Below are positions 151-33,141 of a DNA stretch of 33,141 nucleotides, one piece after another. Made by a program: the position numbers and the translations under genes. This stretch comes from a bacterium. GTDB taxonomy: Bacteria; Patescibacteriota; Microgenomatia; UBA1400; UBA12108. Under the pieces are notes generated by a model. It ran no database searches, had not been told where the DNA came from, and saw nothing but the letters and a program-made list of their open reading frames with translations. The DNA is taken from the NCBI GenBank assembly GCA_021788365.1, contig JAJYKS010000007.1:1-33141 (forward strand), read 5' to 3'. The stretch's first letter is position 1. Each line of letters starts with the position of its first letter.

Positions 151-160
151 CCACGGATTA

Positions 161-2265: not shown

Positions 2266-2271
2266 TTCTGC

Positions 2272-2299
2272 TTGACAATAGTAGTAAATTTGCCATACT
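2272..2299 (+). promoter_or_regulatory. Sigma70-like promoter upstream of 2350 CDS
   Basis: TTGACA (2272-2277), 16 bp spacer, CATACT (2294-2299). Confidence 0.6.
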
Positions 2300-2349
2300 A
2301 AAAAATAGTTTCATATACAAGTTAGTTTTAATAAAAAAGGAAACAATAT

Positions 2350-2880: not shown

Positions 2881-2895
2881 GCGTAGAGAGATACG

Positions 2896-3504: not shown

Positions 3505-4112
3505 ACCTTCGCGCTCCCGCCGCCGCTGTCATCCTTGTTTTCCTCTGTACTAGTACGCTCGCTCATGCCGCGACTTCTCGCACCATACACACAACGGTGG
3601 GGGTAAACGTCTGCGGGAATGGCGCGGTCGAACGGCCAGCCGAAGATTGCGAAGGCAGCAACCTCCACGGTGGGACATGCCAAAATCAAGGATACGGTCC
3701 TGGCACCCTCACCTGCGATATAGCCTGCAGCTACGACACCTTCGGATGTGCCTCCCCCTCGCCGCATCCCTCGCCATCACCATCCTCATCTCCCACACCT
3801 ACAGCTACCGCCACTACCACGACAAACAACTCGAGCGACAGCGAGGCCCCGCCGGTAGGCAGCGGCAGGGCCAGTACCGTACCCATCGAAGTAGTGGCAC
3901 CACGCCTCCCCACACCCCTTGCCGCGCTTGACCCCAACGGCGACGGTACTATCTCAATAGCAGAGCTTTATACAACCGTCAAAAGCTGGGTAGGTAGTTG
4001 GCGAGCAAGCATTGGATCAGAAGGAAAAACTACGATAGCTTGCGATATCAACGGCGACAAATCGTGCGACATCATCGACTTGTCTTTATTGCTATACTAT
4101 ATTGAAAGATAA
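3501..4112 (+). CDS. Secreted dockerin-like protein with Cys-rich N-terminal domain
   Basis: Signal peptide; CGNGAVERPAEDCEG Cys motif; Ser/Pro/Thr linker; C-terminal duplicated Ca-binding loops LDPNGDGTISIAEL and CDINGDKSCDIIDLSLLLYY. Confidence 0.75.
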   Translation: MNLRAPAAAVILVFLCTSTLAHAATSRTIHTTVGVNVCGNGAVERPAEDCEGSNLHGGTCQNQGYGPGTLTCDIACSYDTFGCASPSPHPSPSPSSSPTPTATATTTTNNSSDSEAPPVGSGRASTVPIEVVAPRLPTPLAALDPNGDGTISIAELYTTVKSWVGSWRASIGSEGKTTIACDINGDKSCDIIDLSLLLYYIER

Positions 4113-15674: not shown

Positions 15675-17105
15675 ATGTCTCAGAAAGCCCTGATAGCTAT
15701 CGGCGTCATTCTTGTCGCAACCGGAGTAGTTCTCTACAAACCAGGAAAACTGGATTCTGCGAACTTGACCAGCGTCAAAGATACACTCCAATCCTCCCGC
15801 CTCTCGGTCGCCGCCCGCGTGAACGCAACCGGCACTGCCGTGGGTGGTAGTAACGTACAGATTTACACTGTTGCTTCCTCCCCCTACTACACCATCAGTA
15901 CCGCCAATCTGAGGGCAGGTGATACTGTCACCATCGGCTCGCACGCCTACTCGGTTGTAGGTATCGTCGACTCTGCCAACTTCACTGTCTCCCCTGTCTT
16001 AATTACCGGCGACACTACCGACGGCACCGCCATATATCTAAAAGAGAAGCCCCAGCACGTCGTCACCTTTACGACTGCAACCGCCGTCCCCAACGGTTTC
16101 TTCCAAATCCTTCTCCCCAGTAACGCCACAACCGGCAACGACGGCAACCCAGATTTCAACGGCTACGATTTCAACACCACCGTGGACGTCGTAGGAACCA
16201 ACGCCACCAACTACACTTTTGTCACTGGGGTCGCGACCGCCTCCGGCGGAACAGGTTGCACTGCCCCAGCCAACTACCATTGTTTCGAGGTGCACTACTC
16301 CGGCTCGGGCGGCGTGAGCACCGCGATCACCATTAAGATCGGCAACACCAATGGCACCAACACTCCCATAGCCCCGGCGACAGGCAGCAGCCACACGGAG
16401 GGGACCGCCGACACCTATCCCTTCATCGTCAAAAACTTCGCAGCCAGCGCCAACCCCAACACCGCCACCCCGGTAGACCAAACTACGGGTAGGATCGCCC
16501 AAATAGAATCCGTCCGCGTGACCGCGACCGTCTCGCCGACCATCAGTTTTGCAATCGCCGGCCACGCCGCTTCCGGTACCGTCTGCGGCGTCACCCCCGA
16601 CATCGACACAACTACGGGTTCAAACGCTCCCCTCGCCGTCCCCTTTGGTACCATGACCTTAAACACCTTTAAAACCGCCGTGCAATCCCTTACCGTCTCC
16701 ACCAACGCCGCCTCGGGCTACGTGGTGACGGCCAGCGAGAACCAGCCGCTCGGGAAAAATGGCGCAACGAGCCCCACGATCGCCGACACTACCTGCGACG
16801 CTGGCACCTGCTCCCAGACTACGGCCGGCGAATGGGCAACCGCCACCCACAACGGCTTCGGCTATTCTCTCCAGAACACTTCGGCTACCACTATTGCCTT
16901 TCAATATAACGACTCCGCCGGCACATTCCACGCCAAGCAGTTCGCCGACATTTCCGCCGCCGAGACACCCCAGACACTCTTCAGTAGTACAACGGTCGCG
17001 AACGCCGAAGCCGCCTACGTCTGCTACCGTCTCTCCGTAGGCGCCACTCAGGCCGCCGGCGACTACGAGAACCAGATTACTTATACCGCAACCGGAACAT
17101 TTTAA
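15675..17105 (+). CDS. Secreted surface beta-sandwich protein
   Basis: N-terminal TM/signal; Thr/Asn/Ala-rich beta repeats; C-terminus homologous to 13858-14622. Confidence 0.8.
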   Translation: MSQKALIAIGVILVATGVVLYKPGKLDSANLTSVKDTLQSSRLSVAARVNATGTAVGGSNVQIYTVASSPYYTISTANLRAGDTVTIGSHAYSVVGIVDSANFTVSPVLITGDTTDGTAIYLKEKPQHVVTFTTATAVPNGFFQILLPSNATTGNDGNPDFNGYDFNTTVDVVGTNATNYTFVTGVATASGGTGCTAPANYHCFEVHYSGSGGVSTAITIKIGNTNGTNTPIAPATGSSHTEGTADTYPFIVKNFAASANPNTATPVDQTTGRIAQIESVRVTATVSPTISFAIAGHAASGTVCGVTPDIDTTTGSNAPLAVPFGTMTLNTFKTAVQSLTVSTNAASGYVVTASENQPLGKNGATSPTIADTTCDAGTCSQTTAGEWATATHNGFGYSLQNTSATTIAFQYNDSAGTFHAKQFADISAAETPQTLFSSTTVANAEAAYVCYRLSVGATQAAGDYENQITYTATGTF

Positions 17106-17114
17106 AAGGAGTTT

Positions 17115-18125
17115 ATGCTTCGCCTGCCCCACCCAACCCAAGTTGCAATTCGACGTATAAGACATATAGGACTTATATGTCTTATAGGACTTATAACATC
17201 AGTGCTACCGCCGAAGGCGTTAGCAGCTGATGTATCGTTGGTCGTCTCCCCACCCCGCTTCGACGTCGCCGGCAATCCCGGCGAGACGATCCAAAAGATC
17301 ATCAAAGTCACAAACAATAGCGCCACCCAAACATTAAACCTCAAGGCATTTGTCAAAGATTTCATCGTCCAGGACGATATGGGCACCCCCGTCCCGGTGT
17401 CGGTCACCGCCTCCGGCCGCTACTTCGCTTCACCCTGGTTTACCCTCGACCGTAGCTCCCTCACCATCCCCCCCAAAAGTGAAGACCAGCTCATCGTACT
17501 CATCCAGGTACCTAGAGATGCCTTGCCCGGCGGCCACTACGCCGGGGTCTTCTTCCAGCCCGTACCTGAGGGAGGGCTCAAGACCACCGTTTCTTACACG
17601 GCCTCACAGGTAGGTTCCCTTTTTGGCATCACGGTCGCCGGCAACGTCAAATACAACGCCATCATTAAAGACTTCTCCGTCGGCAAAAACTTGTACGAAT
17701 TTGGGCCGGTCGACTTTCAGGCAACTATCGAAAACCAATCGGACACCCACATCAGCCCCAAAGCCGACGTCAAGGTTTACGACATGCTGGGGCGCCAACT
17801 CACCGATCTTTCCCTCGACTCCGTCAACATCTTCCCCTTTACCAGTCGCACGATTGCGGGTAGGTGGGAAACGGTCTGGGGGCTAGGCCGCTATACTGCT
17901 ACCTTGACCGCCGCCTACGGCCCAAATGGCGCCGTTGCCACCCGCACGATCCTATTCTGGATCCTTCCCTACAAACTCATGACCGCGCTCGGCGTAATTC
18001 TCCTGGTCCTCATCGCCGTCTTTATCCTGATCCGCCGTCACATCTTGCATCGCGAAGACAAGCGGGACGATGAGATCGACGAGCTGAAGCGCAAGATTGT
18101 AGAGCTAGAGAATAAGAACCGGTAA
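17115..18125 (+). CDS. DUF916/WxL-interacting-like membrane-anchored protein
   Basis: SD AGGAG; signal peptide; DVSLVVSPPRFDVAGNPGETIQKIIKVTNNSATQTLNLKAFVKDF...RDALPGGHYAGVFF; C-terminal TM and charged coiled tail. Confidence 0.85.
   Translation: MLRLPHPTQVAIRRIRHIGLICLIGLITSVLPPKALAADVSLVVSPPRFDVAGNPGETIQKIIKVTNNSATQTLNLKAFVKDFIVQDDMGTPVPVSVTASGRYFASPWFTLDRSSLTIPPKSEDQLIVLIQVPRDALPGGHYAGVFFQPVPEGGLKTTVSYTASQVGSLFGITVAGNVKYNAIIKDFSVGKNLYEFGPVDFQATIENQSDTHISPKADVKVYDMLGRQLTDLSLDSVNIFPFTSRTIAGRWETVWGLGRYTATLTAAYGPNGAVATRTILFWILPYKLMTALGVILLVLIAVFILIRRHILHREDKRDDEIDELKRKIVELENKNR
17152..17196 (+). repeat. 9-bp x 5 element, copy 1
   Basis: gacgtataa gacatatag gacttatat gtcttatag gacttataa; encodes the signal-peptide core RRIRHIGLICLIGLI. 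Confidence 0.9.
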
Positions 18126-18140
18126 AGCTATACTGGTAGC

Positions 18141-19418
18141 ATGCCCATCCCTGTCCCCAACCCACCATGTTCCCAGCATATAACTCCTATACGTCTTATA
18201 AGACTTATAAGTCTTATCGGACTTATAGTGGCGGCCATGCCGCCACATGCATTAGCAACTCCACCTCCCGCCACGAGTAGCGCACAGGTCTCCACCACCA
18301 TCCCCACTTTCTTCACGCCAAACGACACAACCGCCCCCACCGCCCCCCTTCTCCTTCGCCCCGCCGACGGCACCTACACCAGCGAAAAGACACTGGAGTT
18401 TGCCTGGCATCAAAGCACCGACATCGACTCCAATAAAATTATATATACATTATATCTGAATAACGTCGCCACCTACCTGGGCATAAGCAACGACGGAAAC
18501 GCCGAAGGCGCAGGCTATACCTCGCGGATCGAAGGCGGAGAAGTTCGCCTCATCCCCAATCCCCCGCTCCCCGACGGCACCTACGACTGGTACGTCACCG
18601 CCGAGGACCTGTCCGGCAACAAAAGCTACTCGGCGTCGTGGCACCTCACAGTTGACACCGTCCCGCCCACAATTCTCGTGACGGATATCGACACCTACCA
18701 TCACCTCGCGCTCGATTCTACTAACCCCGCTTCCGTCCCGCCAGGAACGAGCTTTGATGTAAATGGGCCAAAAGACGTGTACTTTACCGTTGTTACGGAA
18801 CCGTTTGCGACCATCTCACTCCAGTATCGGACCTATCTGTCCTATACGTCGTATCAAACCTATCCGTTTCCCACCGGCTCCGGTGGTCACGTCAACTCCT
18901 ACGCCCACTTTGACCCCGGTACCTACGAGGTGCTCATTTCAGCGGTGGACCGTGCCGGCCAGCCGGCCGCGCTGCCGCCACTGCTGCTTCGCGTCACCGC
19001 AGCAGCGGTGACTATCGGGCCTATCGGTCCTATTGGACGTATCGGCCCTATCAGCTTCCCCGCTCCGCTCACCTCTCTGCCTTCCACCATCTCGTACGTT
19101 GCCACTCGGGTAGGTATGGCAGGATATGTAGCCATTTCGCTAGCAGTATTAGTACTGATACTGCTCATATTCCTCTGGAACAGGCGGGACAACCTTATCT
19201 TGGTGGACGAGCATGGAAACCCCCTTGCCGCGAGTGTTTGGCACTCGCGGCAATATACGTCATATATGATATATAAGTCGTATAAGACGTATACAGGTAG
19301 GCTACGCGTCCCTCACCTAGGTCGCTACTCCACCCTCACGATCCGCACAAGCCGCATCACGCTCGTCCTCTCCCTCTGCCAAAATGCGCGCGTCTACACG
19401 GTCATAGTACCCCAATAA
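18141..19418 (+). CDS. Membrane-anchored surface protein with Ig/FN3-like domains
   Basis: Signal peptide MPIPVPNPPCSQHITPIRLIRLISLIGLIVAAMPPHALA; PLLLRPADGTYTSEKTLEFAWHQSTDIDSNKIIYTLYL; C-terminal TM VAISLAVLVLILLIFLW and cytoplasmic tail. Confidence 0.8.
   Translation: MPIPVPNPPCSQHITPIRLIRLISLIGLIVAAMPPHALATPPPATSSAQVSTTIPTFFTPNDTTAPTAPLLLRPADGTYTSEKTLEFAWHQSTDIDSNKIIYTLYLNNVATYLGISNDGNAEGAGYTSRIEGGEVRLIPNPPLPDGTYDWYVTAEDLSGNKSYSASWHLTVDTVPPTILVTDIDTYHHLALDSTNPASVPPGTSFDVNGPKDVYFTVVTEPFATISLQYRTYLSYTSYQTYPFPTGSGGHVNSYAHFDPGTYEVLISAVDRAGQPAALPPLLLRVTAAAVTIGPIGPIGRIGPISFPAPLTSLPSTISYVATRVGMAGYVAISLAVLVLILLIFLWNRRDNLILVDEHGNPLAASVWHSRQYTSYMIYKSYKTYTGRLRVPHLGRYSTLTIRTSRITLVLSLCQNARVYTVIVPQ
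18184..18228 (+). repeat. 9-bp x 5 element, copy 2
   Basis: ctcctatac gtcttataa gacttataa gtcttatcg gacttatag; in signal-peptide core of 18141 CDS. Confidence 0.9.
18821..18865 (+). repeat. 9-bp x 5 element, copy 3
   Basis: ccagtatcg gacctatct gtcctatac gtcgtatca aacctatcc; encodes QYRTYLSYTSYQTYP. Confidence 0.9.
19009..19053 (+). repeat. 9-bp x 5 element, copy 4
   Basis: tgactatcg ggcctatcg gtcctattg gacgtatcg gccctatca; encodes TIGPIGPIGRIGPI. Confidence 0.9.
19225..19253. repeat. Perfect 12-bp inverted repeat, 5-nt loop, inside CDS
   Basis: TTGCCGCGAGTG-TTTGG-CACTCGCGGCAA; overlaps start of 45-bp element copy 5. Confidence 0.9.
19250..19294 (+). repeat. 9-bp x 5 element, copy 5
   Basis: gcaatatac gtcatatat gatatataa gtcgtataa gacgtatac; encodes RQYTSYMIYKSYKTYT. 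Confidence 0.9.
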
Positions 19419-19454
19419 GTCCTATTTGACATATTCCTCCAATACGTCATATTT
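19410..19454 (+). repeat. 9-bp x 5 element, copy 6 (degenerate, mostly intergenic)
   Basis: ccccaataa gtcctattt gacatattc ctccaatac gtcatattt; spans stop codon of 18141 CDS. Confidence 0.7.
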
Positions 19455-19460
19455 ATTACT

Positions 19461-19973
19461 ATGCCATATAAAGAACTGTTATCCTACCAGATGACAACGA
19501 TCATCTACGATCTAACCGATATTTTTGTAAGAAAATATATTGACAAACGCTCCCGTACCAGTGACCAAATGGTACAAGCCGCCAGGTCTAGTAAGCAAAA
19601 CATTGTTGAAGGCTGCAGCGAACGCACATCAAAAAAAAGCGAGCTCAAGCTCCTAGGCGTAGCCCGTGCCTCACTCAAAGAACTCCTGGAAGATTACGAA
19701 GATTACCTCAGGCAGCGCGGGCTCAGACAATGGGAAAAGTCCTCGCCAGAGTCCCTGGTAGTCCGTAATCTCTCATATAGGTCATATAAGACCTATCAGA
19801 CCTATACGTCCTATATGACAACCCCCAACAAAGCCGCCAATTGTCTTATCTGCCTCATAAATCAAGCCGGATATCTGCTCGACAAACAAATTACGAAAGC
19901 GGAACAAGATTTTCTGCAACATGGTGGGTACACAGAAAATTTGTTTCGACAGCGGCTTCAAAACCGAAAATAA
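19461..19973 (+). CDS. Four-helix-bundle protein (23S rRNA-intervening-sequence protein family-like)
   Basis: DLTDIFVRKYIDKRSRTSDQMVQAARSSKQNIVEGCSERTSKKSELKLLGVARASLKELLEDYEDYL is family-typical; interrupted by a repeat-encoded YRSYKTYQTYTSYM segment. Confidence 0.85.
   Translation: MPYKELLSYQMTTIIYDLTDIFVRKYIDKRSRTSDQMVQAARSSKQNIVEGCSERTSKKSELKLLGVARASLKELLEDYEDYLRQRGLRQWEKSSPESLVVRNLSYRSYKTYQTYTSYMTTPNKAANCLICLINQAGYLLDKQITKAEQDFLQHGGYTENLFRQRLQNRK
19772..19816 (+). repeat. 9-bp x 5 element, copy 7
   Basis: ctcatatag gtcatataa gacctatca gacctatac gtcctatat. Confidence 0.9.
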
Positions 19974-20007
19974 CACATTCCCCCTGCATGTAAACGCGTG
20001 AAACTAT

Positions 20008-20034
20008 TACCGCAATCATTTGCGGTATTATTTC
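20008..20034 (+). terminator. Probable rho-independent terminator after 19461 CDS
   Basis: TACCGCAA-TCAT-TTGCGGTA followed by TTATTT. Confidence 0.55.
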
Positions 20035-20087
20035 TGGTCCCAGACTATTGACACGCCTTGTACAACGCTTTTATAGTAGACCTATGG

Positions 20088-20106
20088 TCCTGAGTTTATC
20101 GAAGGA
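20088..20106. repeat. Dispersed palindromic repeat, intergenic
   Basis: TCCTGAGTTTATCGAAGGA. Confidence 0.75.
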
Positions 20107-20138
20107 TAACAGTGTATAACGAAATATAACTACAAGAT

Positions 20139-23100
20139 ATGAAACCAAATACTGCCCACCCTACATTCGACACCATTCTCGCCACCTGCAAGCAGTTTCT
20201 TGCAAGCACCCACCTGAGTCTCACCAGCCGCAAGCTGTATCTCGCCGACATCAAGCGGTTTTTGCACTGGCTGCAAGCCAGTAAAACCCTGAGTGAATCG
20301 AAGGGCTCGCCGCTAGATATACTCACCCAACCAAGTAACTACACCTCGTATATGGAGTCCTTGAGGAACAATGGCGCTGACAAGTCTGTGCTACTTCGCG
20401 CCCTCGCCTCGCTCAAGCAGCTCGGCACTGTGCTTTCCGCAACCTACAGCATCGCAAACCCCACCGACGGGTTCACCTTGAAGCAAAGATCCGATCTTTC
20501 CGAAGATCGGATCTTTGCTGAGAACTACATCAAACCATTCACCAACCAGCTCGAAAGCGAGCACCTCTCCCCTTTGACCGTTAGGTCCTATAAATCTGAC
20601 GTCACCCGCTACCTGCATTGGGCAAGCTCCAACACTCCTAGCACTCAGATGGATGCAGTGCTAGGCACAAAAAATCGCGAAAAATACTTGGATCATCTGC
20701 GCCAAATTGATGGAATGTCTTCGGCGACCATAGAGCGAAAAGGTAAGTCCATCGCCCGTTTTGCAACGTGGTATGCCGGTGCCTACCCGCACGCCGTACT
20801 ACCCGATAGTTCTTCCGCCCACCTAGCGAGCGGTATAGGACCTATACGTCCAATACGTCCTATTGGACCTATACGTATTGGCTCCTCTGTTCCAGAGGAA
20901 CCAATAGATTCCGTGAAAAAAAATAATTCCCGCAAACGGTTCTTTCTCCCGATTCCGCGCCTGTTCGGCCCAGGTTCCGAACTTCTGGGAGTTCGGAACC
21001 TTCTTCCCTTTGCCATCCTCCTCCTCTTCACGATTACCCTTGGCGTCTTCTCCTACCGTCAGTTCTCCCGCGATCGGGTTGTCTTGACCGAAGCCTATCC
21101 CAGCACACCGGTTACCCCGAACCGGCAGATCTCCTTCCAGGGCAGGCTCGAGAACGCCGGTGGCACACCCATAACCAGCGCCACCAACTTTGTCTTTAAG
21201 TTGTTCGATGCCGCCTCCGCCGGCACGCAGCTCTATAGTAGTGGCACGTGTTCCGTGACCCCCGACTCCGACGGCGTCTTCAATACTCAGATCGGCAGTA
21301 CCTGTGGCTCGGCGATTACCTCCGATGTCTTTACCCAAAACGCCAACGTCTATCTTGAAGTCACGGTGGGCGCCGAGACCCTCACCCCCCGCCAGCAAAT
21401 CGCCACCGTCGCCTATGCCCTAAACTCCGAGACTCTGCAGGGATTCCCCATCTCCGCAACGGTCTCTGCAGTGCGGAACACCGTCGTCCCCATGAATCAG
21501 TGGGGTGAAATCTTGGTCGGCGAGCAAAATCCGCGCATGACCGGCGTCTCAGGGACGTTTCAAATCTCCGCCCCCGCCCTCTCGCTCGCGACGACCACGG
21601 GCAGTAGTGGCAACATCACGATTGCCCCCGACGGCACCGGCCAGGTCAACGTGAACGGCAACACCACGACCACCAATTTCTTCAACGTGGCCGACGCCCA
21701 GCTCAGTACCGGCACTTTGATTACCGGCACCGTGGGGAACAACACCACCGGCTTCAAACTCCTCGACCTCCTTTCAGGAACCAGCCCCACCAGCAAATTC
21801 TCGGTAGACGCCTCCGGCAACACCACCCTCGCCGGCACGCTTAGCCTCCCCAATAGCAATACCTTAACCGGAGTGACCAATTATATTGAAGCCAGCGGCG
21901 GCCTCGCGGTAGGTAGCGGCACCACCTATAAACTGACGAGTACCGGCGATCTCTACGCTAATAACATCTACACAGGTGGTACGCAAAGGTTGGACTCCGC
22001 CGGAAATTTAACAAACATTGGCACCACCCAGCTCCACGGGGTCACCTACACCTGGCCAAGTGCCGACGCCGGCTCCTCCGGCTACGTCCTGTCTAGTAAC
22101 GCAGGCGGCACCCTCTCGTGGGTGGCCCAGACCGGCGGGGGTGGTAGCACTTATTGGCGGCTCGCCACCGGCGCACTCTCCCCGGTAAACGACACCCTCG
22201 ACCTTTTGCTCGGAGGCAACGCCACCGGCTCCGCCAAAATCGGACTAATCAACGTGAATAGCGGCACTCCCACCGCGACCATTGCCGGCACCACCGCCAA
22301 TGTAGCAACCTACCTGAATGGCAACGGCACGCTAGGGACGACCAACGCGCAAACCTTGACCCTCGGCAGTATTTCGACCGGCAACGTCATCCTCGCTCCC
22401 GGCGGCACGACAGCGTTGACCGCGGCAGGCGCCAATCTGACCGCTGCCGGCACGCTCACCCTGCCAAGCACAAACACCTTGACCGGGGTGACCAACTATC
22501 TGCAGCTTTCCCAGGGCTTGTCCGTCGGCGGCGGCACCACCTACTACATTGCCGGCAACGGTAACGGCAATCTCAACGGCCTCACGCTGGGTGCCGCCCT
22601 CGCTCTACCAAATACCAACAGCCTAACCGGGGTGTCGGGTTATGTACAATTTAACAACGGGATATCCGTGGGGGCGGCAACCGCCTATCACTTCGACAAT
22701 ACCGGCAACCTCGTCGCCCAAGGCGTCTCCGGCACGTCCCTCACCGATTCTGGGCTCACCCCCGGCTCCATCGTCTTTGCCGGCATGGCTGGTCTCCTTT
22801 CCCAAAACAACGGCAATTTTTACTGGGACAACACGAACAAGCACCTGGGCGTGGGCGCCAGCGGGACGAATCTTTTGGGTACCCTTGACCTTCGCTCCAC
22901 GCTCGGCACCCTGCCGGTCGCAACCATTTCCGGAGCGACATCCATGGCCTCCCTCATGGTCGACCAATCTGGTGTCGGCGACCTTCTTACGGCGAGCAAG
23001 TCCGGCGCCACCAAATTCGTGGTAGCCAATAATGGCAATGTGGGGATTGGCACCGCCAACCCCAGCTATCTTCTGGACGTGAACGGCAACGCCCGGATCG

Positions 23101-26100
23101 TGGGCGCCACCTTTACCAACAACGTCTATTTTGCCAACAGCTCGGACACGACCGGCTACTATGTGGACGTGAACGGCAACGCCAAATTTCTGGATTTAAT
23201 CGCCTCCGACACCGGCAACCCCGGATTAACCGTGGGCAACGGCAGCATCGGTTTTGCCAAAATCGGCGGCAGCACCATCTCCGACAACGCCGGCAACCTG
23301 ACCCTCGCCTCCGACACCGGTACGACGGACATTACCGGGAACGCTACGACCACCGGCTATGTGACGGTGGGGAACGGCATCATCAATTCGGGAGTTGCCG
23401 ACGGCACCTCGGCTCTCGGCTTCACCCTCAACACCAACAACACTCTGACCGGCGCCGACGCCAAGCTCCTCTCCATTAAAAACAACGGCACCGAAAAAAT
23501 GTACCTGGATGCCAGCGGCAACCTCTACGTCTCCGGCACGATTACCTCCGGTGCCGGCTTCTCCGTCACCGCGGTCAACAAGAGCGGCGGCACCGTCGCC
23601 AAGAAGGCACTAGTCGTCCTCGACCCCACGAACGCCAACGCCTTCACCACCACGACTACCCCCTACTCCAAGGCCGTCTTTGGTGTAGTGCAGGGGGTAG
23701 AGGTCAACAGCGACACCAACAACAACGGCGCCTGCGACGCGAACGAGACCTGTCTCATCGCCGTTGCTGGCGAGGTCGACGTTACTATTAAAAATACAAC
23801 CACGGTCGCCAAAGGCGATTATCTCTTCACCTCCGACACGGCAGGTAGCGCCTTCTCCTCCGCCAAGCAGTACGACGGCCTGGTCGGCGTCGTCTCCGAT
23901 ACTACGAATGCCGGCTCCGGCTACGTCAAGATGATTTTCAAAGTTCAGCCCCAGGTCACGGCCAGCGCCGCCATAGACAAGACCAGCAAACACAACGAGT
24001 ATTGGCTCTACGCGAACGACTACACCGCTGTCAATGAGGGTACGAATACTAATGCTAACCTCCTGGCTCGGGGGCTTACCTTTGACAATTTCTACGACAA
24101 CACCAAAACGGATAGCGCCAACACCACGGTGAGCGGCCCCGCCCCCGTTGGCGGCGCCGCCGCTCCCTATCGGGCAGGCCTCATGGGTGGCCAAACCATG
24201 AGTGCAGCAACCACCGACAATGCCGGGAATACCTATCTAGGGAGTAGTACGGTCAACAAGGTCTTCTACTACGACCGTACCAAGGACAGTATCCCCCAGG
24301 TCCAGGTAGAGCTAGGGATCGATCCTAACTGGTACAACGGGGTAACCTTGTCGGTGGCAACAACCAGTGCTCAGTTTAGCCAGAACAGTACCACTCCCCA
24401 GAAGAATCCGAACTTAAGTACCTCGTACAACGGCTCCCTGATTAAAGCCACGGGGACATATAGCAGTAACGCCAAGACTATCTATATCACCATCAAGTCC
24501 CCCACCACCTTTGACTGGACGGACTACAACGGCCAGGCTGCGACCGGCGTCACCATGACTCCCGGGACAGCCCAGGCGCTAGGGGCAACCGGTGTCTCCG
24601 CGACCTTCACCTCCGCCTCCTACAATGTCGGTGATGTCTTCAAGATCGCCTCCTGGTTCACCGAACCATCCTCTTCCACCCGTGGGGCAAAGGCCCAGTT
24701 CCCGGAACGCTCCAATATCGTGGCGACCGCCTCCTCCGTGGACGTGATCGACGCCGATACCCAGAAACTCTGGATGAGGTTTAGCACTGGCGGAACTACG
24801 ATAAATAATTCTAATATGATCGGTGCTACCGCCGATCCACTAAATTCGACAACAGCGCTAAATGGAGAAATAATAACCGCTAATACTGGAACTGTTTCTA
24901 ACTCAACAACATTCATTAGATTTTTTAGCGACGAAGCACGTATCGCGAATGCAACCGGTGGCAATGGACATAAATACAACGGTGGTATCTCTCAAAGAAA
25001 TTCTGGACTAGGAATAATTACTAGTATATATGCTAACTTTAATATAGTGGCACCTCAAGCCAACGACGTCGCCGCTGCCGTCATCCCCAACCAACCCACC
25101 GGTCAAGTGACCGTGAGTGGGTGGGGGTATATCCAAGGTGCTGCCGCAACCAACGTAAGTGAAGCCGTCAATCTGCCGTACAAATTTAATAATATTCCAA
25201 AAGTAAACATTAGCTATACCGGCGCCAAACCAACAACAGCCCCAACCTCACTTTCAGATTGTAACGCTGCTTATAATCGTTACACCGTTTGGACTGGACC
25301 AGTAACAACTACAGGTTTCTCTGCATTTATAGGGCTTACAGATGCAGCAGATGGAAACATGAGTTCAAGCTACTATTTCTGTTACACCTGGACCGCAACC
25401 GGCGTCGTCTCCCCCAAACAGTTTGTGGCGGTAGCGACAGGTAGTAGCAGCTCAAACGGCGGTACCACCGTCATCAATGAAACCGATGGCACCAGTATCA
25501 ACATCTCCATCGGCAGCCAAAGCGGCGGCACGGTCTGGCAAGACAAGGTTGCCTTTGCCAACAACACCTTATATCTAGGTGGTGGTGGTACCCCCACCCC
25601 GACCTACTTGGCAGTATATTATGGGGTTCACGGCCTATCAGCCAGCGAAACATCTTGGGCTCAATATCGGAATGGATACTACTTTGTCGGACAACAATCT
25701 AGTGGTTGGTCGGCAACCGGACCTGTAATTTTAGGTGCAAATGGTGCTCGTTTTACCTCCCTTGTCGCGACTCCAAACACCTCAACCATAAATAGCCACA
25801 GCAACACCATCTATGCCGGGACTGCCAGTGGTCTTTCTGTCATCCAAGAAAACCAGGGAGGGGGCAATGTTGCGGACGGTTCCGTGGAATCCTCCGGTTC
25901 TGTTAAATACTACACCAAAGACTACGTCTCCGAAGAAATGGTTGGGGATGTCCGCGGCATGTGGCCCTTGTCCGCCAGTGGTGCCCTTTCCTTGTCCGAC
26001 GTCTCCGTTAAGGGTAATACATTAACAAACACAGGATCCGTTACTGCAGTGAGCGGCGTTCGTGGCATGGGGGCAACGTTTAATGGGTCAAACTACCTAT

Positions 26101-29100
26101 CTATTGCAGATAATTCATCGCTTAACCTCAGTGGCGGATCAACAATGTCAGTCGGGGCCTGGTTTAAAACAACATCGTCAGGTACCGTGATTGCCAAAAC
26201 ACAGGGAGGAGTATCGTATCCAGACTTTTATCTTGTCGTCGGAGCCATATCGTCCGGAAAGATAACATTTACTATGTCTGTCACCGCAGGTACTTCTCAG
26301 GTGGCAGTCACCTCTAACACGACAGTTAATGACGGTAATTGGCACTATGCAATTGGTTCATATGATGGTGCGAACATGAATCTTTACATTGATGGAAAAT
26401 TAGACAATACAGCTGCAAGAACGGGAGCAGTTTATCACAATGCATCGGCATCTTTAGCAATTGGCGCGGTCTTGGGCACACCGAATTCCAGTTTTCTTAC
26501 AGGATCAGTCGACGAGCCATTCGTGACGGCGACAGCCCTCTCCGCCTCTCAGGTTAAACACATGTACGAGGTAGGTGCTCGTGCTCTCCAGTCCCACGCT
26601 ACTACCCTGGGTGGTGGTGGAGCCGACTTGAATCAAGAGTTAGGTGGCTCGGTCAATACGGTGGGAGACGCAAGACCGGACTACAACAACCAGTTTATGT
26701 ATGTCGGTACCAACGATGCGACGAATGGCAGGGTATCTAAGATTAGCTTAAACAGTGATACCAACGTCAAGACCTATGACAAAACCACCAATACCCCGAC
26801 AGGAGGTACCCTTCTGGCCAATGACAACACCAACACTCTCGCCGTCGGCTACAACCTGGAGACCGTGGGGAGCGCCACCAGTGGGGTAAAAACCATAGGG
26901 ATCGATTCCTACGCGACCGCCACCTCCGGCAACTTTATCGGCAAAACAGTCACCACTGCCGAATCTTTCAACCAAGCCTACGTCTGGAGCCAGTACACCC
27001 TGGACAGCTCCGACGCGAGCAACACCGTTGCCGTCTGGGCCAGCAACGACGGCGGCAGCAACTACTACCAATGCAATCTCACCAACACCGATTCCAGCCA
27101 GTCCCCTCCCGAGTACGAATACTTCTGCCAGTTCAACACTCCCGGCACTTCGCTCAAAACCAAGTTCGTTATGGCCCGCGGCTCCACCAAAACGAACACC
27201 TATATTACTCGTTACGGCGTAGCGTGGGTGAGCGGCGACGCCGTCGCGAGCGCCCCCGGCGGCAACGGACTTTACACCAACACCAATACCGCGGTCGCGA
27301 GCGGCAGCTACATCGACGTCGCCCACAACCAGGGGACGAACGATCTTTTGACAAACGCCTGGATCAATTCCCAATCCGTCTGGAAATCCCTGGATGCCAG
27401 CTACCAGCCGGCTATAGCCTGGGCAGGCAAAGATACGGAAAAAGGCGTCTACCACAACGCCGTCAATTCGTACGTACCAACCGCCGAGACTACCGACACC
27501 ACCACCAATCTCGCAAGCGGCCTCCTCTTTGACACGTTCGAAGACCAGACAAAAACCGACTCCGGCAGCACCACCGCCTCCATTACTACTCAGAAGCCGG
27601 ACGACGGCGCCGCCAACTATATGACCCTGCAAAATAGGGTCCAATCCGGCCGCGTCGGCCTCATGGGTGGCCAAACCATGAGTGCAGCAACCACCGACAA
27701 TGCCGGGAATACCTATCTAGGGAGTAGTACGGTCAACAAGGTCTTCTACTACGACCGTACCAAGGACAGTATCCCCCAGGTCCAGGTAGAGCTAGGGATC
27801 GATCCTAACTGGTACAACGGGGTAACCTTGTCGGTGGCAACAACCAGTGCCCAGTTTAGCCAAAACAGTACCACTCCCCAGAAGAACCCGAACTTAAGTA
27901 CCTCGTATAACGGCTCCCTGATTAAAGCCACGGGGACATATAGCAGTAACGCCAAGACTATCTATATCACCATCAAATCCCCCACCACCTTTGACTGGAC
28001 GGACTACAACGGCCAGGCTGCGACCGGTGTCACCATGACTCCCGGGACAGCCCAGGCCCTTGGCACGACCGGTGTCTCCGCTACCTTTACCTCCGCCTCC
28101 TACAACGTGGGCGATGTCTTCCGTATTGCTTCATGGTTTGTCGAGCCGGCTTCCGCGACCCGTGGCAGCAAAGCTCAGTTCCCGGAGAGGAGTAATGTAA
28201 TTACTCAAAATAACTACACTGATATTATTGACGCCGATACGCAAAAATTATGGATGCGTTTTAATGTGGTCGCCTGGAAGACATCGTACGTCGCTCTAAG
28301 CGCCAACATGCTCAACGGTATTCTCTATATCGCCAACAATAATAGTGCCGGTAGCGACGGCAACCTCAGGCGTCTCAATTTTGCAATCGATAACGACAAT
28401 TATCTCTATGAAGGGAGTACTTTCAAAGCCATTGGAGCCCAGACAACTATTGCTGCTAGAAATATTGCCGGTACCAGCAACGTCATTATCGCTCCCATTG
28501 GACTAGTTTCGCGCTACGCTAACGACGTCTCCGCCGCCGTCATCCCCAACCAGCCGACGGGACAGGTGACGGTAAGCGGGTGGGGATATGTGGCCGGAGA
28601 TGGGGTTAGCACAGTTCTGACAGAAGCCGTCAACTTCCCATACAAATTTAATACGACTCCAACTGTCCAAGTCTCTTGGGCTGGACAAGTAGCATCAACT
28701 CCCACTTCCTTATCAAGTTGTGCCACATCTGGCGGAAGCGGAGCAGGGCTAGGATCAACAACTGCAGCTGCAGTTGGCACAAATACATTTAACGTTAGTA
28801 TGGCAAAAAACACAAACGTTTTTGCGAGTGGTGTTTACTTCTGTTACACCTGGACCGCCACCGGCGTCGTCTCCCCCAAACAGTTTGTGGCAGTAGCAGA
28901 AGGAACGAGTATCGCCGGCGGCGCCACAGACGTAATCAATGAAACGGATGGCACGGTTGCTCATATAATGTCTGCAAACGGAGCAGTAAACACCCTTAAC
29001 TATCAATCAAAAGTCGCCATCGCCGGAAATAATCTCTATATGGGAGATGGATACCTCCCCTCTACTGGTATATCATCAGTGGATATCTACCATGGTATTC

Positions 29101-32100
29101 ACGGACTCACCTCAGAGGCAGGAGTTGCCCAATACAGACGCGGATATTATGAAGTAGGGGCTATTGGTGCCTCATTTATTCCAAGCATTTTAGGTACAGC
29201 CACCGGTGCCAACCAGATTACCTCGCTTGCCGCCACCGCCGGAACTTCAACTGTCGACGGCAAATCAAACACGCTCTACATCGGTACCACCTCTGGCCTT
29301 ACGGTATTACAAGAGAATCAAGGATCGGGGAACATCACAGACGGCTCGGAAGAATCCTCCGGTTCCGTCAAATACTACACCAAAGACTACGTCTCCGAAG
29401 AAATGGTCGGCGACATCCGCGGCATGTGGCCGCTCTCCAGTAATGGCGCATTATCTTTAACCGACGCCTCTATAAAAGGAGATACTCTCACCAATAACGG
29501 TAGTGTCACCGCTATTTCCGGCGTGCGTGGTATGGCGGCCAGCTTCAATGGAAGTAATTACTTATCCTGTACCGACGCGGCCTGTGGAGGAACGACCAAA
29601 TTAGACTCCGGCGGCACTACTTGGAGCTATGGTGCTTGGTATAAAACAACAATGACAGGGTCAGGGGGAACGGCTGGAAGAATTATTGGTAAATGGGGTA
29701 ATGGAACTGCTGGAATAGCATCGTATTTATTATCCATGGGAGATTCTGGCACCGGAAAATTGAGAGGCGTTATACAAAACAGCTCTGCAACACAAGGTAT
29801 TGTTGACGACACAACGACAAGTAATGATGGCAGCTGGCACTACGCCGTAGTAACGTATGATGGAGCTAGCCTTAAACTATATCGAGATGGACAACTAGTT
29901 AACCAAACCGCCACTACTGTCACAATCGCTGATGGAACGGCTGGTTTTGCGGTTGGAGCGGCTGACACACCAGGCTATTATTTTACCGGCTCCATCGACG
30001 AGCCCTTCGTGACCGCCACGGCTCTTTCTGCTGGTCAGGTTAAACACATGTACGAGGTAGGTGCTCGTGCCCTCCAGTCTCACGCCACAACCCTGGGTGG
30101 TGGTGGAGCCGATCTCAATCAAGAGTTAGGTGGCTCGGTCAATACGGTAGGAGACGCTCGCCCCGACTACAACAACCAGTTTATGTATGTCGGTACCAAT
30201 GACGCGACGAATGGCAGGGTATCTAAGATTAGCTTAAACAGTGATACCAACGTCAAGACGTATGACAAAACCACCAATACCCCCACGGGAGGGACACTCC
30301 TAGCCAACGACGATACCAACACTCTCGCCGTCGGCTACAACCTAGAGACCGTGGGGAGTGCCACCAGTGGAGTCAAGACTATGGGGGTAGATGACTATGC
30401 AACGGCCACGAGCGGCAGCTACTACAGCAAGACCTACACCCTCCCCCAGAATATTGGCTCGGCTGTGCTCTGGGCATCCCCAATCCTGGATAGTGCAGAC
30501 GCCGGCAACACGCTAACGGTCAAGGCCTCGGTCGACGGTGGTAGCACCTACACTACCTGTACCCTGGCCAGCACCGATTCCGCTCCCACCGTCCCCGAAA
30601 AAGAATATGCCTGCACCTTCCCCGCCTCCGGCTCTTCCCTCAAGATCCGCTTCGACTTTGCCCGCGGTTCTACGAAAACCAACACCTATCTCGTCCAGTA
30701 CGGCATCTCCTGGCTCGGCCAGAGTGGCTTTAAAATCGAGCAAACTGACAACAACACCGTCCGCCTCTACAACTACTCCGGAGAAACCCAAAACCTCCGC
30801 CTCGACGTCGTGACCGGCGGCCTCGGCAGGAACTCCGGCACCATCAGCCTGGCCCCCTCCGTGGCCGACGTCAACGCCAACTCCAACACCAACAGTATCT
30901 GGGTGAATAATACCGGCACCGGCGGCAATCTTCTCAAATTACAGTCAGGGGGAACCGATGTCCTTTCGCTCACACCCACGGGCAATCTGACCCTGACCGG
31001 CGACTTGCATTTGACGGGTAAGCTCTACGATTCAAATGTCACATCGGGCATCAGTCTCGGCGATGCGAGCAACTCCTCCCTGGTCGGCTTTGGCGCCTCC
31101 TCCTTGGTCGGCGCCCTCAACGAACTTAAAAATAGCAACGCCAACATCTCCCACAACGACTATCTCGATTGGGCCAATTACTATACCGCTAAAGCCGAAG
31201 GATCAAACTCCAACGTCAACAGTGCTCTGAACGGCCTCTTCTTCGACACCTTCGCCGATAGTACCAAACTGGACAGCGCCAACTCCACGAGTAGCGGCGC
31301 CATTCAAATCTCGGATCCATCCGCCGCTGTCAAACCTTCGGCGCCCTTCCGTGTCGGTCTCATGGGTGGCCAAACCATGAGTGCGGGGACAACCGACAAT
31401 GCGGGGAATACCTATCTTGGGAGTAGTACAGTCAACAAGGTCTTCTACTACGACCGTACCAAAGATAGTATCCCCCAGGTCCAGGTGGAGCTAGGGATCG
31501 ATCCTAACTGGTACAACGGAGTAACCTTGTCGGTGGCAACAACCAGTGCCCAGTTTAGCCAGAACAGTACCACTCCCCAGAAGAATCCGAACCTAAGTAC
31601 CACCTACAACGGCTCCCTGATCAAAGCCACGGGGACATATAGCAGTAACGCCAAGACTATCTATATCACCATCAAATCCCCCACCACCTTTGACTGGACC
31701 GACTACAACGGCCAGGCTGCTACCGGTGTCACCATGACTCCCGGGACAGCCCAGGCACTCGGGACAACCGGTGTCTCCGCAACCTTTACCTCCGCCTCCT
31801 ACAACGTGGGCGATGTCTTCCGTATTGCTTCATGGTTTGTCGAGCCCGCTTCCGCCACTCGCGGTAGCAAAGCTCAATTCCCGGAGAGGAGTAATATTAT
31901 TGGCACTTTAGCCAATAATACCAGTATTATTGATGCCGATACTCAAAAATTGTGGATGTCATTTACTGGAGGAAATAACAATACCGCGGCCACAATGACC
32001 ATGCTGGGGTATGAATCTAATTCGATAAATGCTCTCAACGGAGTTATTTATTCCGGAACTCCAAATAGCAACAATGTAGGTTTAACAATGATCCGCTTCA

Positions 32101-33141
32101 ATGTAGACTCTGCTTCTCATGCTGACGGTGGAGGGAATAATTATATGACCTGGAAAGGATCGGGGATTGCTGGCCGTAATGTTGCCTCAGGATATTCAAC
32201 TACTAATTCCTCCATATCTATTGTTAGTTCAGTTGTTAACGACGTCTCCGCCGCCGTCATCCCCAACCAACCCACCCAAACTGTGACGGTGAGTGGGTGG
32301 GGGTATATCCAAGGGAGCGGCCTTGGAACGATGGCTGAAACAGTTAGATTACCATATAAATTCAACGACATTCCAAATATAGTAACCAACATAGGGGGCG
32401 CGACAAACAGTGGCGCGCCTACAAATCTTTCAAGTTGTACAACTGGCGCATTCGGTTACGGTACGATTGCTGCTTCCGCCTCTTCTGTAGGAAATTCTTC
32501 ATTTACGGTAAACATGACCATGCCTAGTGGTACTTTTAGCTCCTCATATTATTATTGCTACACCTGGACCGCAACCGGCACCGTCTCTCCTAAGCAGTTT
32601 GTGGCCGTGGCAACCCAAGTTGGCAATACGGTCATTAATGAAACTAACCAATCATCTATCAATGTTTATAATAACGGATCTGGTTATCCAAATAAAAAGA
32701 TCTTCCTTACTTCAAAAGGCGAACTCTATTACACGGAAGATCTCACTCTTGCCAGAGCAGAAGACCAGCTTTTGGTAAAACGGAACGTTGCAGGACTCAC
32801 TACAAATCAAACTGGCGCCAATGGGTTTGATTATTATTACAATCATCAGTCCACCTCTATCCCCTCATTGGGAAGTCTGGCCTATGTCCATAGCTTGTAT
32901 GTAACCGAAAATACATCAACCTATATAAACGGTGGAAACACTGTCTATTTTGGTGATGATGGGGGTCTAAAACTAATTCAAGAAAATAGTAACTACGGAA
33001 ATGCGAGCGACGCGGGTGGTGGAACACCTGGTGGTTCCGTCAAATACTACACCAAAGACTACATTTCCGAGGAAATGGTCGGGGATGTCCGCTTAATGAC
33101 ACCATTTGCCGGAACTTCTGCATTATCTACCAACACCACTC
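20139..33141 (+). CDS. Giant membrane-anchored repetitive surface protein (partial, runs off window): tandem core-binding-like domains, TM, adhesin-like ectodomain with H-lectin-like and LamG-like modules
   Basis: Frame (codon starts at positions divisible by 3) read from ATG 20139; sections translated at the start, in the repeats and at the end (33060 tac att tcc gag gaa atg) stay in one frame. N-term LTSRKLYLADIKRFLHWLQ and LTVRSYKSDVTRYLHWAS; TM LLPFAILLLFTITLGVFSY; NNGNVGIGTANPSYLLDVNGNARI; DGNWHYAIGSYDGANMNLYIDGKL. Confidence 0.9.
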   Translation, partial: MKPNTAHPTFDTILATCKQFLASTHLSLTSRKLYLADIKRFLHWLQASKTLSESKGSPLDILTQPSNYTSYMESLRNNGADKSVLLRALASLKQLGTVLSATYSIANPTDGFTLKQRSDLSEDRIFAENYIKPFTNQLESEHLSPLTVRSYKSDVTRYLHWASSNTPSTQMDAVLGTKNREKYLDHLRQIDGMSSATIERKGKSIARFATWYAGAYPHAVLPDSSSAHLASGIGPIRPIRPIGPIRIGSSVPEEPIDSVKKNNSRKRFFLPIPRLFGPGSELLGVRNLLPFAILLLFTITLGVFSYRQFSRDRVVLTEAYPSTPVTPNRQISFQGRLENAGGTPITSATNFVFKLFDAASAGTQLYSSGTCSVTPDSDGVFNTQIGSTCGSAITSDVFTQNANVYLEVTVGAETLTPRQQIATVAYALNSETLQGFPISATVSAVRNTVVPMNQWGEILVGEQNPRMTGVSGTFQISAPALSLATTTGSSGNITIAPDGTGQVNVNGNTTTTNFFNVADAQLSTGTLITGTVGNNTTGFKLLDLLSGTSPTSKFSVDASGNTTLAGTLSLPNSNTLTGVTNYIEASGGLAVGSGTTYKLTSTGDLYANNIYTGGTQRLDSAGNLTNIGTTQLHGVTYTWPSADAGSSGYVLSSNAGGTLSWVAQTGGGGSTYWRLATGALSPVNDTLDLLLGGNATGSAKIGLINVNSGTPTATIAGTTANVATYLNGNGTLGTTNAQTLTLGSISTGNVILAPGGTTALTAAGANLTAAGTLTLPSTNTLTGVTNYLQLSQGLSVGGGTTYYIAGNGNGNLNGLTLGAALALPNTNSLTGVSGYVQFNNGISVGAATAYHFDNTGNLVAQGVSGTSLTDSGLTPGSIVFAGMAGLLSQNNGNFYWDNTNKHLGVGASGTNLLGTLDLRSTLGTLPVATISGATSMASLMVDQSGVGDLLTASKSGATKFVVANNGNVGIGTANPSYLLDVNGNARIVGATFTNNVYFANSSDTTGYYVDVNGNAKFLDLIASDTGNPGLTVGNGSIGFAKIGGSTISDNAGNLTLASDTGTTDITGNATTTGYVTVGNGIINSGVADGTSALGFTLNTNNTLTGADAKLLSIKNNGTEKMYLDASGNLYVSGTITSGAGFSVTAVNKSGGTVAKKALVVLDPTNANAFTTTTTPYSKAVFGVVQGVEVNSDTNNNGACDANETCLIAVAGEVDVTIKNTTTVAKGDYLFTSDTAGSAFSSAKQYDGLVGVVSDTTNAGSGYVKMIFKVQPQVTASAAIDKTSKHNEYWLYANDYTAVNEGTNTNANLLARGLTFDNFYDNTKTDSANTTVSGPAPVGGAAAPYRAGLMGGQTMSAATTDNAGNTYLGSSTVNKVFYYDRTKDSIPQVQVELGIDPNWYNGVTLSVATTSAQFSQNSTTPQKNPNLSTSYNGSLIKATGTYSSNAKTIYITIKSPTTFDWTDYNGQAATGVTMTPGTAQALGATGVSATFTSASYNVGDVFKIASWFTEPSSSTRGAKAQFPERSNIVATASSVDVIDADTQKLWMRFSTGGTTINNSNMIGATADPLNSTTALNGEIITANTGTVSNSTTFIRFFSDEARIANATGGNGHKYNGGISQRNSGLGIITSIYANFNIVAPQANDVAAAVIPNQPTGQVTVSGWGYIQGAAATNVSEAVNLPYKFNNIPKVNISYTGAKPTTAPTSLSDCNAAYNRYTVWTGPVTTTGFSAFIGLTDAADGNMSSSYYFCYTWTATGVVSPKQFVAVATGSSSSNGGTTVINETDGTSINISIGSQSGGTVWQDKVAFANNTLYLGGGGTPTPTYLAVYYGVHGLSASETSWAQYRNGYYFVGQQSSGWSATGPVILGANGARFTSLVATPNTSTINSHSNTIYAGTASGLSVIQENQGGGNVADGSVESSGSVKYYTKDYVSEEMVGDVRGMWPLSASGALSLSDVSVKGNTLTNTGSVTAVSGVRGMGATFNGSNYLSIADNSSLNLSGGSTMSVGAWFKTTSSGTVIAKTQGGVSYPDFYLVVGAISSGKITFTMSVTAGTSQVAVTSNTTVNDGNWHYAIGSYDGANMNLYIDGKLDNTAARTGAVYHNASASLAIGAVLGTPNSSFLTGSVDEPFVTATALSASQVKHMYEVGARALQSHATTLGGGGADLNQELGGSVNTVGDARPDYNNQFMYVGTNDATNGRVSKISLNSDTNVKTYDKTTNTPTGGTLLANDNTNTLAVGYNLETVGSATSGVKTIGIDSYATATSGNFIGKTVTTAESFNQAYVWSQYTLDSSDASNTVAVWASNDGGSNYYQCNLTNTDSSQSPPEYEYFCQFNTPGTSLKTKFVMARGSTKTNTYITRYGVAWVSGDAVASAPGGNGLYTNTNTAVASGSYIDVAHNQGTNDLLTNAWINSQSVWKSLDASYQPAIAWAGKDTEKGVYHNAVNSYVPTAETTDTTTNLASGLLFDTFEDQTKTDSGSTTASITTQKPDDGAANYMTLQNRVQSGRVGLMGGQTMSAATTDNAGNTYLGSSTVNKVFYYDRTKDSIPQVQVELGIDPNWYNGVTLSVATTSAQFSQNSTTPQKNPNLSTSYNGSLIKATGTYSSNAKTIYITIKSPTTFDWTDYNGQAATGVTMTPGTAQALGTTGVSATFTSASYNVGDVFRIASWFVEPASATRGSKAQFPERSNVITQNNYTDIIDADTQKLWMRFNVVAWKTSYVALSANMLNGILYIANNNSAGSDGNLRRLNFAIDNDNYLYEGSTFKAIGAQTTIAARNIAGTSNVIIAPIGLVSRYANDVSAAVIPNQPTGQVTVSGWGYVAGDGVSTVLTEAVNFPYKFNTTPTVQVSWAGQVASTPTSLSSCATSGGSGAGLGSTTAAAVGTNTFNVSMAKNTNVFASGVYFCYTWTATGVVSPKQFVAVAEGTSIAGGATDVINETDGTVAHIMSANGAVNTLNYQSKVAIAGNNLYMGDGYLPSTGISSVDIYHGIHGLTSEAGVAQYRRGYYEVGAIGASFIPSILGTATGANQITSLAATAGTSTVDGKSNTLYIGTTSGLTVLQENQGSGNITDGSEESSGSVKYYTKDYVSEEMVGDIRGMWPLSSNGALSLTDASIKGDTLTNNGSVTAISGVRGMAASFNGSNYLSCTDAACGGTTKLDSGGTTWSYGAWYKTTMTGSGGTAGRIIGKWGNGTAGIASYLLSMGDSGTGKLRGVIQNSSATQGIVDDTTTSNDGSWHYAVVTYDGASLKLYRDGQLVNQTATTVTIADGTAGFAVGAADTPGYYFTGSIDEPFVTATALSAGQVKHMYEVGARALQSHATTLGGGGADLNQELGGSVNTVGDARPDYNNQFMYVGTNDATNGRVSKISLNSDTNVKTYDKTTNTPTGGTLLANDDTNTLAVGYNLETVGSATSGVKTMGVDDYATATSGSYYSKTYTLPQNIGSAVLWASPILDSADAGNTLTVKASVDGGSTYTTCTLASTDSAPTVPEKEYACTFPASGSSLKIRFDFARGSTKTNTYLVQYGISWLGQSGFKIEQTDNNTVRLYNYSGETQNLRLDVVTGGLGRNSGTISLAPSVADVNANSNTNSIWVNNTGTGGNLLKLQSGGTDVLSLTPTGNLTLTGDLHLTGKLYDSNVTSGISLGDASNSSLVGFGASSLVGALNELKNSNANISHNDYLDWANYYTAKAEGSNSNVNSALNGLFFDTFADSTKLDSANSTSSGAIQISDPSAAVKPSAPFRVGLMGGQTMSAGTTDNAGNTYLGSSTVNKVFYYDRTKDSIPQVQVELGIDPNWYNGVTLSVATTSAQFSQNSTTPQKNPNLSTTYNGSLIKATGTYSSNAKTIYITIKSPTTFDWTDYNGQAATGVTMTPGTAQALGTTGVSATFTSASYNVGDVFRIASWFVEPASATRGSKAQFPERSNIIGTLANNTSIIDADTQKLWMSFTGGNNNTAATMTMLGYESNSINALNGVIYSGTPNSNNVGLTMIRFNVDSASHADGGGNNYMTWKGSGIAGRNVASGYSTTNSSISIVSSVVNDVSAAVIPNQPTQTVTVSGWGYIQGSGLGTMAETVRLPYKFNDIPNIVTNIGGATNSGAPTNLSSCTTGAFGYGTIAASASSVGNSSFTVNMTMPSGTFSSSYYYCYTWTATGTVSPKQFVAVATQVGNTVINETNQSSINVYNNGSGYPNKKIFLTSKGELYYTEDLTLARAEDQLLVKRNVAGLTTNQTGANGFDYYYNHQSTSIPSLGSLAYVHSLYVTENTSTYINGGNTVYFGDDGGLKLIQENSNYGNASDAGGGTPGGSVKYYTKDYISEEMVGDVRLMTPFAGTSALSTNTT
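20287..20305. repeat. Dispersed palindromic repeat in giant ORF
   Basis: CCCTGAGTGAATCGAAGGG. Confidence 0.7.
20482..20519. repeat. Perfect 17-bp inverted repeat, 4-nt loop, inside giant ORF
   Basis: AGCAAAGATCCGATCTT-TCCG-AAGATCGGATCTTTGCT. Confidence 0.95.
20831..20875 (+). repeat. 9-bp x 5 element, copy 8
   Basis: gcggtatag gacctatac gtccaatac gtcctattg gacctatac; encodes GIGPIRPIRPIGPIR. Confidence 0.9.
20878..20906. repeat. 13-bp inverted repeat (1 mismatch), 3-nt loop
   Basis: ATTGGCTCCTCTG-TTC-CAGAGGAACCAAT. Confidence 0.85.
20972..21001. repeat. 12-bp perfect inverted repeat, 6-nt loop
   Basis: AGGTTCCGAACT-TCTGGG-AGTTCGGAACCT. Confidence 0.9.
24176..26900 (+). repeat. Large ectodomain module, copy 1
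   Basis: LMGGQTMSAATTDNAGNTYLGSSTVNKVFYYDRTKDSIPQVQVELG ... LamG-like ... NTLAVGYNLETVGSATSGVK. Confidence 0.9.
27656..30380 (+). repeat. Large ectodomain module, copy 2
   Basis: 27661 onward is identical to 24181 onward for about 190 nt, then near-identical; same domain order. Confidence 0.9.
31355..33141 (+). repeat. Large ectodomain module, copy 3 (partial)
   Basis: Starts 31360 tcatgggtggccaaaccatgagtgcg...; same order, cut by window end. Confidence 0.9.

Follow-up and report, generated by a model that had tools for sequence, protein, structure and literature searches.

The window analysed here is the whole 33,141-nucleotide stretch of contig JAJYKS010000007.1 (assembly GCA_021788365.1), from a bacterium of the Patescibacteriota class Microgenomatia. 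Its right-hand part is occupied by a single giant gene, whose open reading frame (ORF) runs from an ATG at 20139 through 4334 codons to the window end without a stop. From its N-terminus, the predicted product carries two core-binding (CB) domains of the type found in Xer tyrosine recombinases, a linker, one transmembrane (TM) helix, and an ectodomain that makes up most of the protein. The gene and its parts, including two conserved elements just upstream, are as follows:

20139..33141, + strand: 5′ part of the giant surface protein gene, at least 4334 amino acids, open at the window end
20163..20474, + strand: CB (SAM-like) domain 1, CB1, residues 9–112, with invariant Y34, D37, R87, and S91 (AlphaFold2 model, VIA-align, conservation)
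20490..20789, + strand: CB (SAM-like) domain 2, CB2, residues 118–217, with invariant Y151, D154, and R200 (PF02899, model, conservation)
20790..20990, + strand: disordered linker, including the stretch IGPIRPIRPIGPIRIG encoded by 9-bp repeats (pLDDT, translation)
20991..21068, + strand: single TM helix, residues 285–310, predicted N-in/C-out (model and topology prediction)
21117..21209, + strand: conserved motif P-N-R-x-x-S-F-Q-G-R-L, which follows the membrane segment and opens the ectodomain (alignment)
26082..26558, + strand: Laminin_G_3 (ConA-like lectin) domain of the ectodomain (PF13385, E = 4e-19)
29607..30041, + strand: second Laminin_G_3 domain of the ectodomain (PF13385, E = 1.9e-15)
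20008..20027, + strand: conserved hairpin resembling a terminator, 5′ of the giant gene (alignment in four genomes)
20048..20077, + strand: conserved sigma-70-type promoter, TTGACA-N18-TATAGT (alignment in four genomes)

Because the hairpin and the promoter, directly 5′ of the ATG, align at matching positions in three family relatives, and because the N-terminal protein sequence is kept there (39–48% identity), a downstream start codon, which a preliminary description of this stretch had considered, is very unlikely. The 3′ end of the gene very probably lies on contig C16 of the same genome (G000). Positions 1–3511 of that contig hold the terminal part of an ORF built from the ectodomain repeat of the giant gene, a repeat that is found nowhere else in the whole genome outside the giant ORF.

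The preliminary description had seen two CB-like segments within residues 1 to about 230. By sequence, Pfam matches PF02899 to residues 132–208 above cut-off (29.3 bits for CB2 alone vs. a cut-off of 22.3), while CB1 alone scores weakly and below that cut-off (16.3 bits, E = 0.012); NCBIfam matches are to the N-terminal parts of XerC and XerD. Since a sequence-only search of the PDB (phmmer) returned no relatives, folds had to be compared. An AlphaFold2 model of residues 1–333, built with 24 sequences, consists of two helical domains with pLDDT mostly above 90. The best match of CB1 is XerD (1a0p; Z = 12.6, root-mean-square deviation 1.6 Å over 89 residues, VIA-align), and nearly all rows below it in the list are Xer, lambda Int, IntI, Cre, or other recombinase chains. 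CB2, modelled alone (pLDDT 89.7, pTM 0.82), is also best matched by XerD (Z = 10.7, 2.0 Å, 83 residues), and further matches include integron integrase and XerA. Plain Foldseek E-values are weak (best 0.04, to XerA), so the identification rests on profile match, fold, and residue signature combined. On the evidence of the models, the assignment of residues 9–112 and 118–217 as two Xer-type SAM-like CB domains in tandem holds, and the segments first noticed had been placed correctly. A phage origin of the module is unsupported, as no relative was found among IMG/VR viral contigs. A tree of the CB domains (95 columns) leaves the deep forks unresolved and does not place the origin of the duplication.

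As had also been recognized, the CB segments are not followed by a catalytic domain. Pfam finds no PF00589 (R-K-H-R-H/W-Y) in residues 1–333 or in the ectodomain, and the whole genome has three matches, none of them on this contig. Judged by sequence, the giant ORF does not qualify as a tyrosine recombinase enzyme. At least one full-length tyrosine recombinase, usually two, is present in every relative searched; since these enzymes are kept, the giant protein is, to judge by gene content, an additional use of the CB fold beside the normal Xer enzymes. In the closest relative (G001), a 738-amino-acid ORF (C8:4657-6450) has a tyrosine recombinase catalytic domain broken in frame by about 1.25 kb, possibly by an intein.

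Conservation is concentrated at a small set of positions. All 18 sequences of CB1 have Y34, D37, R87, and S91, and 17 of them have K32. Among 24 sequences of CB2, Y151, D154, and R200 are invariant, S204 is found in 21, and position 149 is basic in 22. A mapping in register at both alignment ends (model 10–97, i.e. residues 127–214, onto Cre 21–104) pairs T147, R149, S150, R200, and S204 with Cre T41, K43, M44, Q90, and Q94, respectively. In Cre, residues of helices B and D, including K43, M44, Q90, and Q94, are determinants of DNA specificity, and Q90 touches a base pair (PMC6486577). In XerH, most base-specific contacts come from the N-terminal domain (PMC5241119). According to the alignments, the DNA-facing residues on helices B and D are kept in both repeats, and the average net charge is +4.3 for CB1 and +4.0 for CB2. 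Because Cre K43, Q90, and Q94 have their counterparts among the invariant residues of both repeats, DNA binding is the best and most parsimonious reading of the two domains and is likely.

The membrane part of the protein agrees with the preliminary description as well. In the model, the linker (about residues 222–284) is disordered, with pLDDT of about 44–55 over most of its length, and a long helix at 285–310 forms the TM segment. No signal peptide precedes the CB domains, lysine and arginine are richer before the helix than after it in 17 of the 22 sequences, and the Laminin_G_3 domains belong to the C-terminal part. The predicted and likely orientation is N-in/C-out, with the CB domains in the cytoplasm. 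Beyond the helix, the two Laminin_G_3 domains, both above cut-off, would provide the extracellular ligand-binding part expected of an adhesin or giant surface protein.

The arrangement had been called unusual. Compared with known systems it is, but it is not a one-off, being the standard N-terminus of a conserved family found mostly in Microgenomates. BLAST with residues 1–333 gave matches in 42 of the 89 relatives, some of them covering only the TM helix and the FQGRL region or a partial CB domain. Of the members with a name, nearly all belong to the Microgenomates (Collier-, Woese-, Roizman-, Levy-, Shapiro-, and Pacebacteria, and GW2011 genomes). A sample of the phylum showed the full architecture within the same class and, beyond it, a single time (G095, with one CB domain); the other matches in that sample were ordinary Xer enzymes of about 300 amino acids. 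Members share an order of parts: at least one CB domain, then a linker that varies, a single TM helix, and the motif P-x-R-x-x-S-F-Q-G-R-L. The CB domains persist in relatives at 16–47% identity, their number ranges from one half-domain to several copies, and some members are degenerate. A literature search, in which subscription papers and preprints were incompletely covered, found no description of a protein with tandem CB domains, a TM helix, and a giant ectodomain. The architecture is real, conserved, and apparently undescribed, a new arrangement of ordinary parts whose anatomy is well established. One 322-amino-acid ORF (L123:1480-2445, on contig C1 of G150) consists of a CB tandem, a proline-rich linker, a C-terminal TM helix, and a tail of about 20 residues, i.e. 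a stand-alone membrane-anchored CB module almost without ectodomain. Furthermore, a common C-terminal ending, F-x-W-W-x-[IV]-E/D, was noted at L047:7013-7495, L023, and L069:1-3511; it occurs on the giant protein and on short TM proteins encoded beside CB half-genes.

In nine loci from several Microgenomates lineages (L011, L013, L014, L047, L053, L055, L060, L061, and L064), CB2 is split. CB1 and the front half of CB2 are encoded by a small upstream ORF, and the giant ORF opens with the remaining half; in all nine, CB2 is interrupted within or close to the loop that follows its second helix. The halves are adjacent, overlapping, or separated by about 400 nt to 1 kb (e.g. about 400 nt in L011 and L013, meeting at ATGA in L014, and overlapping in L053). 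Split loci of the Roizmanbacteria type have a micro-ORF between the halves:

L055:7529-7747, L060:7739-7909, L061:7810-7968, and L064:7409-7615: conserved micro-ORF with the motif D/N-P-A-x-x-G-[SN]-P-Y

A comparison of five split-gene loci with Rfam revealed neither a known intron nor any other known RNA. With so many cases, assembly error is unlikely as their cause. The sequences suggest that the halves reassemble at the membrane, or that frameshifting takes place.

Short DNA arrays lie upstream of the giant gene and at its beginning, and a link between them and the CB domains had been offered earlier as speculation. The 9-bp unit is GWCNTATNN. No strand is assigned to the arrays, which look alike on both strands because GWC is its own reverse complement:

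17151..17198: array 1, in the signal-peptide region of gene 17115
18179..18230: array 2, in the N-terminal hydrophobic region of gene 18141
18826..18866: array 3, in an insertion absent from G001
19012..19055: array 4
19253..19293: array 5, in the part of gene 18141 for the C-terminal region, a spot occupied by a 7-bp array in G001
19419..19452: array 6, intergenic; in G001, the same gene is followed by a 7-bp array
19768..19822: array 7, in the four-helix-bundle gene 19461
20834..20877: array 8, in the linker of the giant gene

A genome scan with a three-unit pattern, allowing up to two mismatches, gave 51 matches, and the reversed pattern used as a control gave none. Fifty of the 51 fall within 17148-20877 of the window or within C16:2628-3049, and the remaining one is on C23. 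The association of these arrays with the locus is therefore real in this genome. Their translation uses two frames, which give I-x-P-I or Y-x-x-Y, and one array is intergenic; on that account they look like DNA-level features, and selection on the peptide is disfavoured as their cause. Other short repeats behave differently. The period-8 family GYCRGCNN is dispersed over many contigs of G000, and many AT-rich period-7 arrays are also present in that genome; together, these two kinds were noted on C2, C6, C7:7726, C8, C10, C14, C15, and C16. A background sample of 380 kb of stretches contained many period-7 arrays and, at the scan threshold, no GWCNTAT arrays. The idea that all short arrays cluster at the giant locus was rejected accordingly, only the 9-bp family being confined to it.

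In G001, a 7-bp unit, GTCTATC, takes a similar place. Within 4.7 kb upstream of the giant gene lie all three of its matches at a tolerance of one mismatch and six of its ten at a tolerance of three. Two of these sites correspond to arrays of the window, one in the C-terminal part of the 425/405-amino-acid gene and the other in the intergenic stretch behind it. In G005, the 6 kb upstream of the giant gene hold seven of the 23 matches to that genome's CTTTCTA array; G004 has no matches for either unit. The sequences thus make the association suggestive in two relatives. Outside this family of genomes, most loci are without an array within 8 kb, and the arrays as a general target of the protein family are unsupported. 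The earlier suggestion of a link gains genuine, if limited, support from the confinement of the arrays to the locus and from the different array that a relative carries there; it does not extend to most family members, and binding to the arrays stays speculative. We consider it rather unlikely that the membrane-anchored CB tandem recognizes the arrays (GWCNTATNN here, GTCTATC in G001), thereby fastening its own gene cluster to the membrane site at which the giant product is inserted, and that protein and array unit have evolved together from genus to genus. If true, such self-tethering would be striking. Local slippage and homogenization could yield the same association without any protein.

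Upstream of the giant gene lie conserved neighbours:

15675..19418, + strand: neighbour genes for proteins of 476, 336, and 425 amino acids, secreted or membrane-bound, in synteny with the closest relative

The gene at 19461-19973 is an insertion in this otherwise syntenic cluster and is absent from G001. It encodes a four-helix-bundle protein with a TIGR04258 suffix domain, and a 9-bp array lies between its two parts. Farther upstream, the product of 3501-4112 has a dockerin-like end (below cut-off), and its neighbour at 4128-5120 a cohesin domain (above cut-off).

Taken together, the preliminary description is partly supported, and the data suggest a surface protein with a second role, that of holding DNA at the membrane. 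We favour, with a probability of roughly 0.55, a type II giant surface protein whose two CB domains grip chromosomal DNA. The tandem would have been taken over from a tyrosine recombinase of the XerD/XerA type and kept without its catalytic domain. The two domains would sit side by side on chromosomal DNA, with helices B and D of each in the major groove. Such a grip would either link the surface fibre to the nucleoid or make the protein a membrane-bound DNA-binding factor in the manner of ToxR/CadC; on this reading, tethering or regulation would be the purpose of the tandem. Several points weigh against DNA binding by a membrane-held tandem. In recombinases, the CB domain binds DNA jointly with the catalytic domain, and a lone CB domain is usually a weak binder. 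The net charge of the two domains, about +4 on average, falls short of the +7.6 of genuine Xer CB domains, lysine and arginine are biased only moderately towards the N-terminal side of the TM helix (in 17 of 22 sequences), and CB2 is split or worn down in some lineages, which would be odd if both domains had to bind DNA.

Possible, and clearly less probable than DNA binding, is that the CB domains no longer contact DNA and serve as a protein–protein docking module at the inner membrane face, comparable to the helix-turn-helix (HTH) domain of RodZ with MreB, so that the conserved residues hold a partner or the fold. The reduced charge fits such a module. So do the split lineages, in which a small soluble protein with CB1 and half of CB2 faces a membrane protein with the other half, resembling a docking pair, and in which CB2 halves of the Roizmanbacteria type have lost the DNA-facing residues that CB1 retains. 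However, the invariant positions in both repeats fall on DNA-contact positions of Cre, and CB1 keeps its full signature even in the split forms. Much less probable is an action of the membrane-bound CB domains on the cell's own Xer system, e.g. by pairing or competing with XerC/XerD-like enzymes at dif near the membrane. Full-length recombinases accompany the protein in all relatives searched and its CB fold is nearest to XerD/XerA, but the CB sequences of the giants form lineages apart from the XerC-type enzymes of their genomes, as far as a tree with unresolved deep forks can tell. We give equally little credence to an inert leftover of a recombinase gene that was fused upstream of a surface protein and tolerated since a type II protein needs a cytoplasmic N-terminus. 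The variable copy number and the degenerate members would suit a relic; the invariance of Y, D, and R in both repeats of distant members, in a family that spans an order and beyond, would not.

Few bacterial surface proteins have been proposed to span from the cell exterior to DNA. If DNA binding by the tandem is true, a conserved family of the Microgenomates, which have small genomes, are mostly uncultured, and whose lifestyles are poorly understood, would provide a new link between envelope and chromosome, and Xer CB domains would have been reused as stand-alone modules.

Among known systems, Borg elements (PMC9879509) also have short tandem repeats inside ORFs that encode low-complexity peptides, whereas the repeats here belong to one 9-bp family at a single locus of a Microgenomates genome and are partly intergenic. 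A recombinase fold turned into a pure DNA-binding protein is known from MrpR (YopR), the master repressor of SPbeta (PMC10516654). The giant protein would likewise use a tyrosine recombinase fold as a non-recombining DNA binder, but MrpR is soluble and has an inactive catalytic domain, while the giant protein is CB-only and membrane-anchored. With the Xer recombinases themselves (XerD, 1a0p; XerA, 5hxy; XerH, 5jk0) it shares the four-helix SAM-like CB fold and the T..Y..D / R..S signature on DNA-facing helices; it differs in its tandem CB domains, which lead to a TM helix and a giant ectodomain instead of a catalytic domain. RodZ is composed of a cytoplasmic HTH domain, a TM helix, and a periplasmic domain, and its HTH binds MreB, not DNA. 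It resembles the giant protein in that a type II membrane protein carries a DNA-binding-type fold at its inner end, but the HTH and CB folds are unrelated. The one-component regulators ToxR and CadC share with the giant protein an N-terminal DNA-binding-type domain, one TM helix, and an outer C-terminal part (by predicted topology in the present case). Their DNA-binding domain is a winged helix (Trans_reg_C), for which the giant protein with its CB fold has no Pfam match, and in contrast to these regulators, the giant protein, whose regulatory role is putative, extends outward over thousands of residues with fibre and LamG domains.
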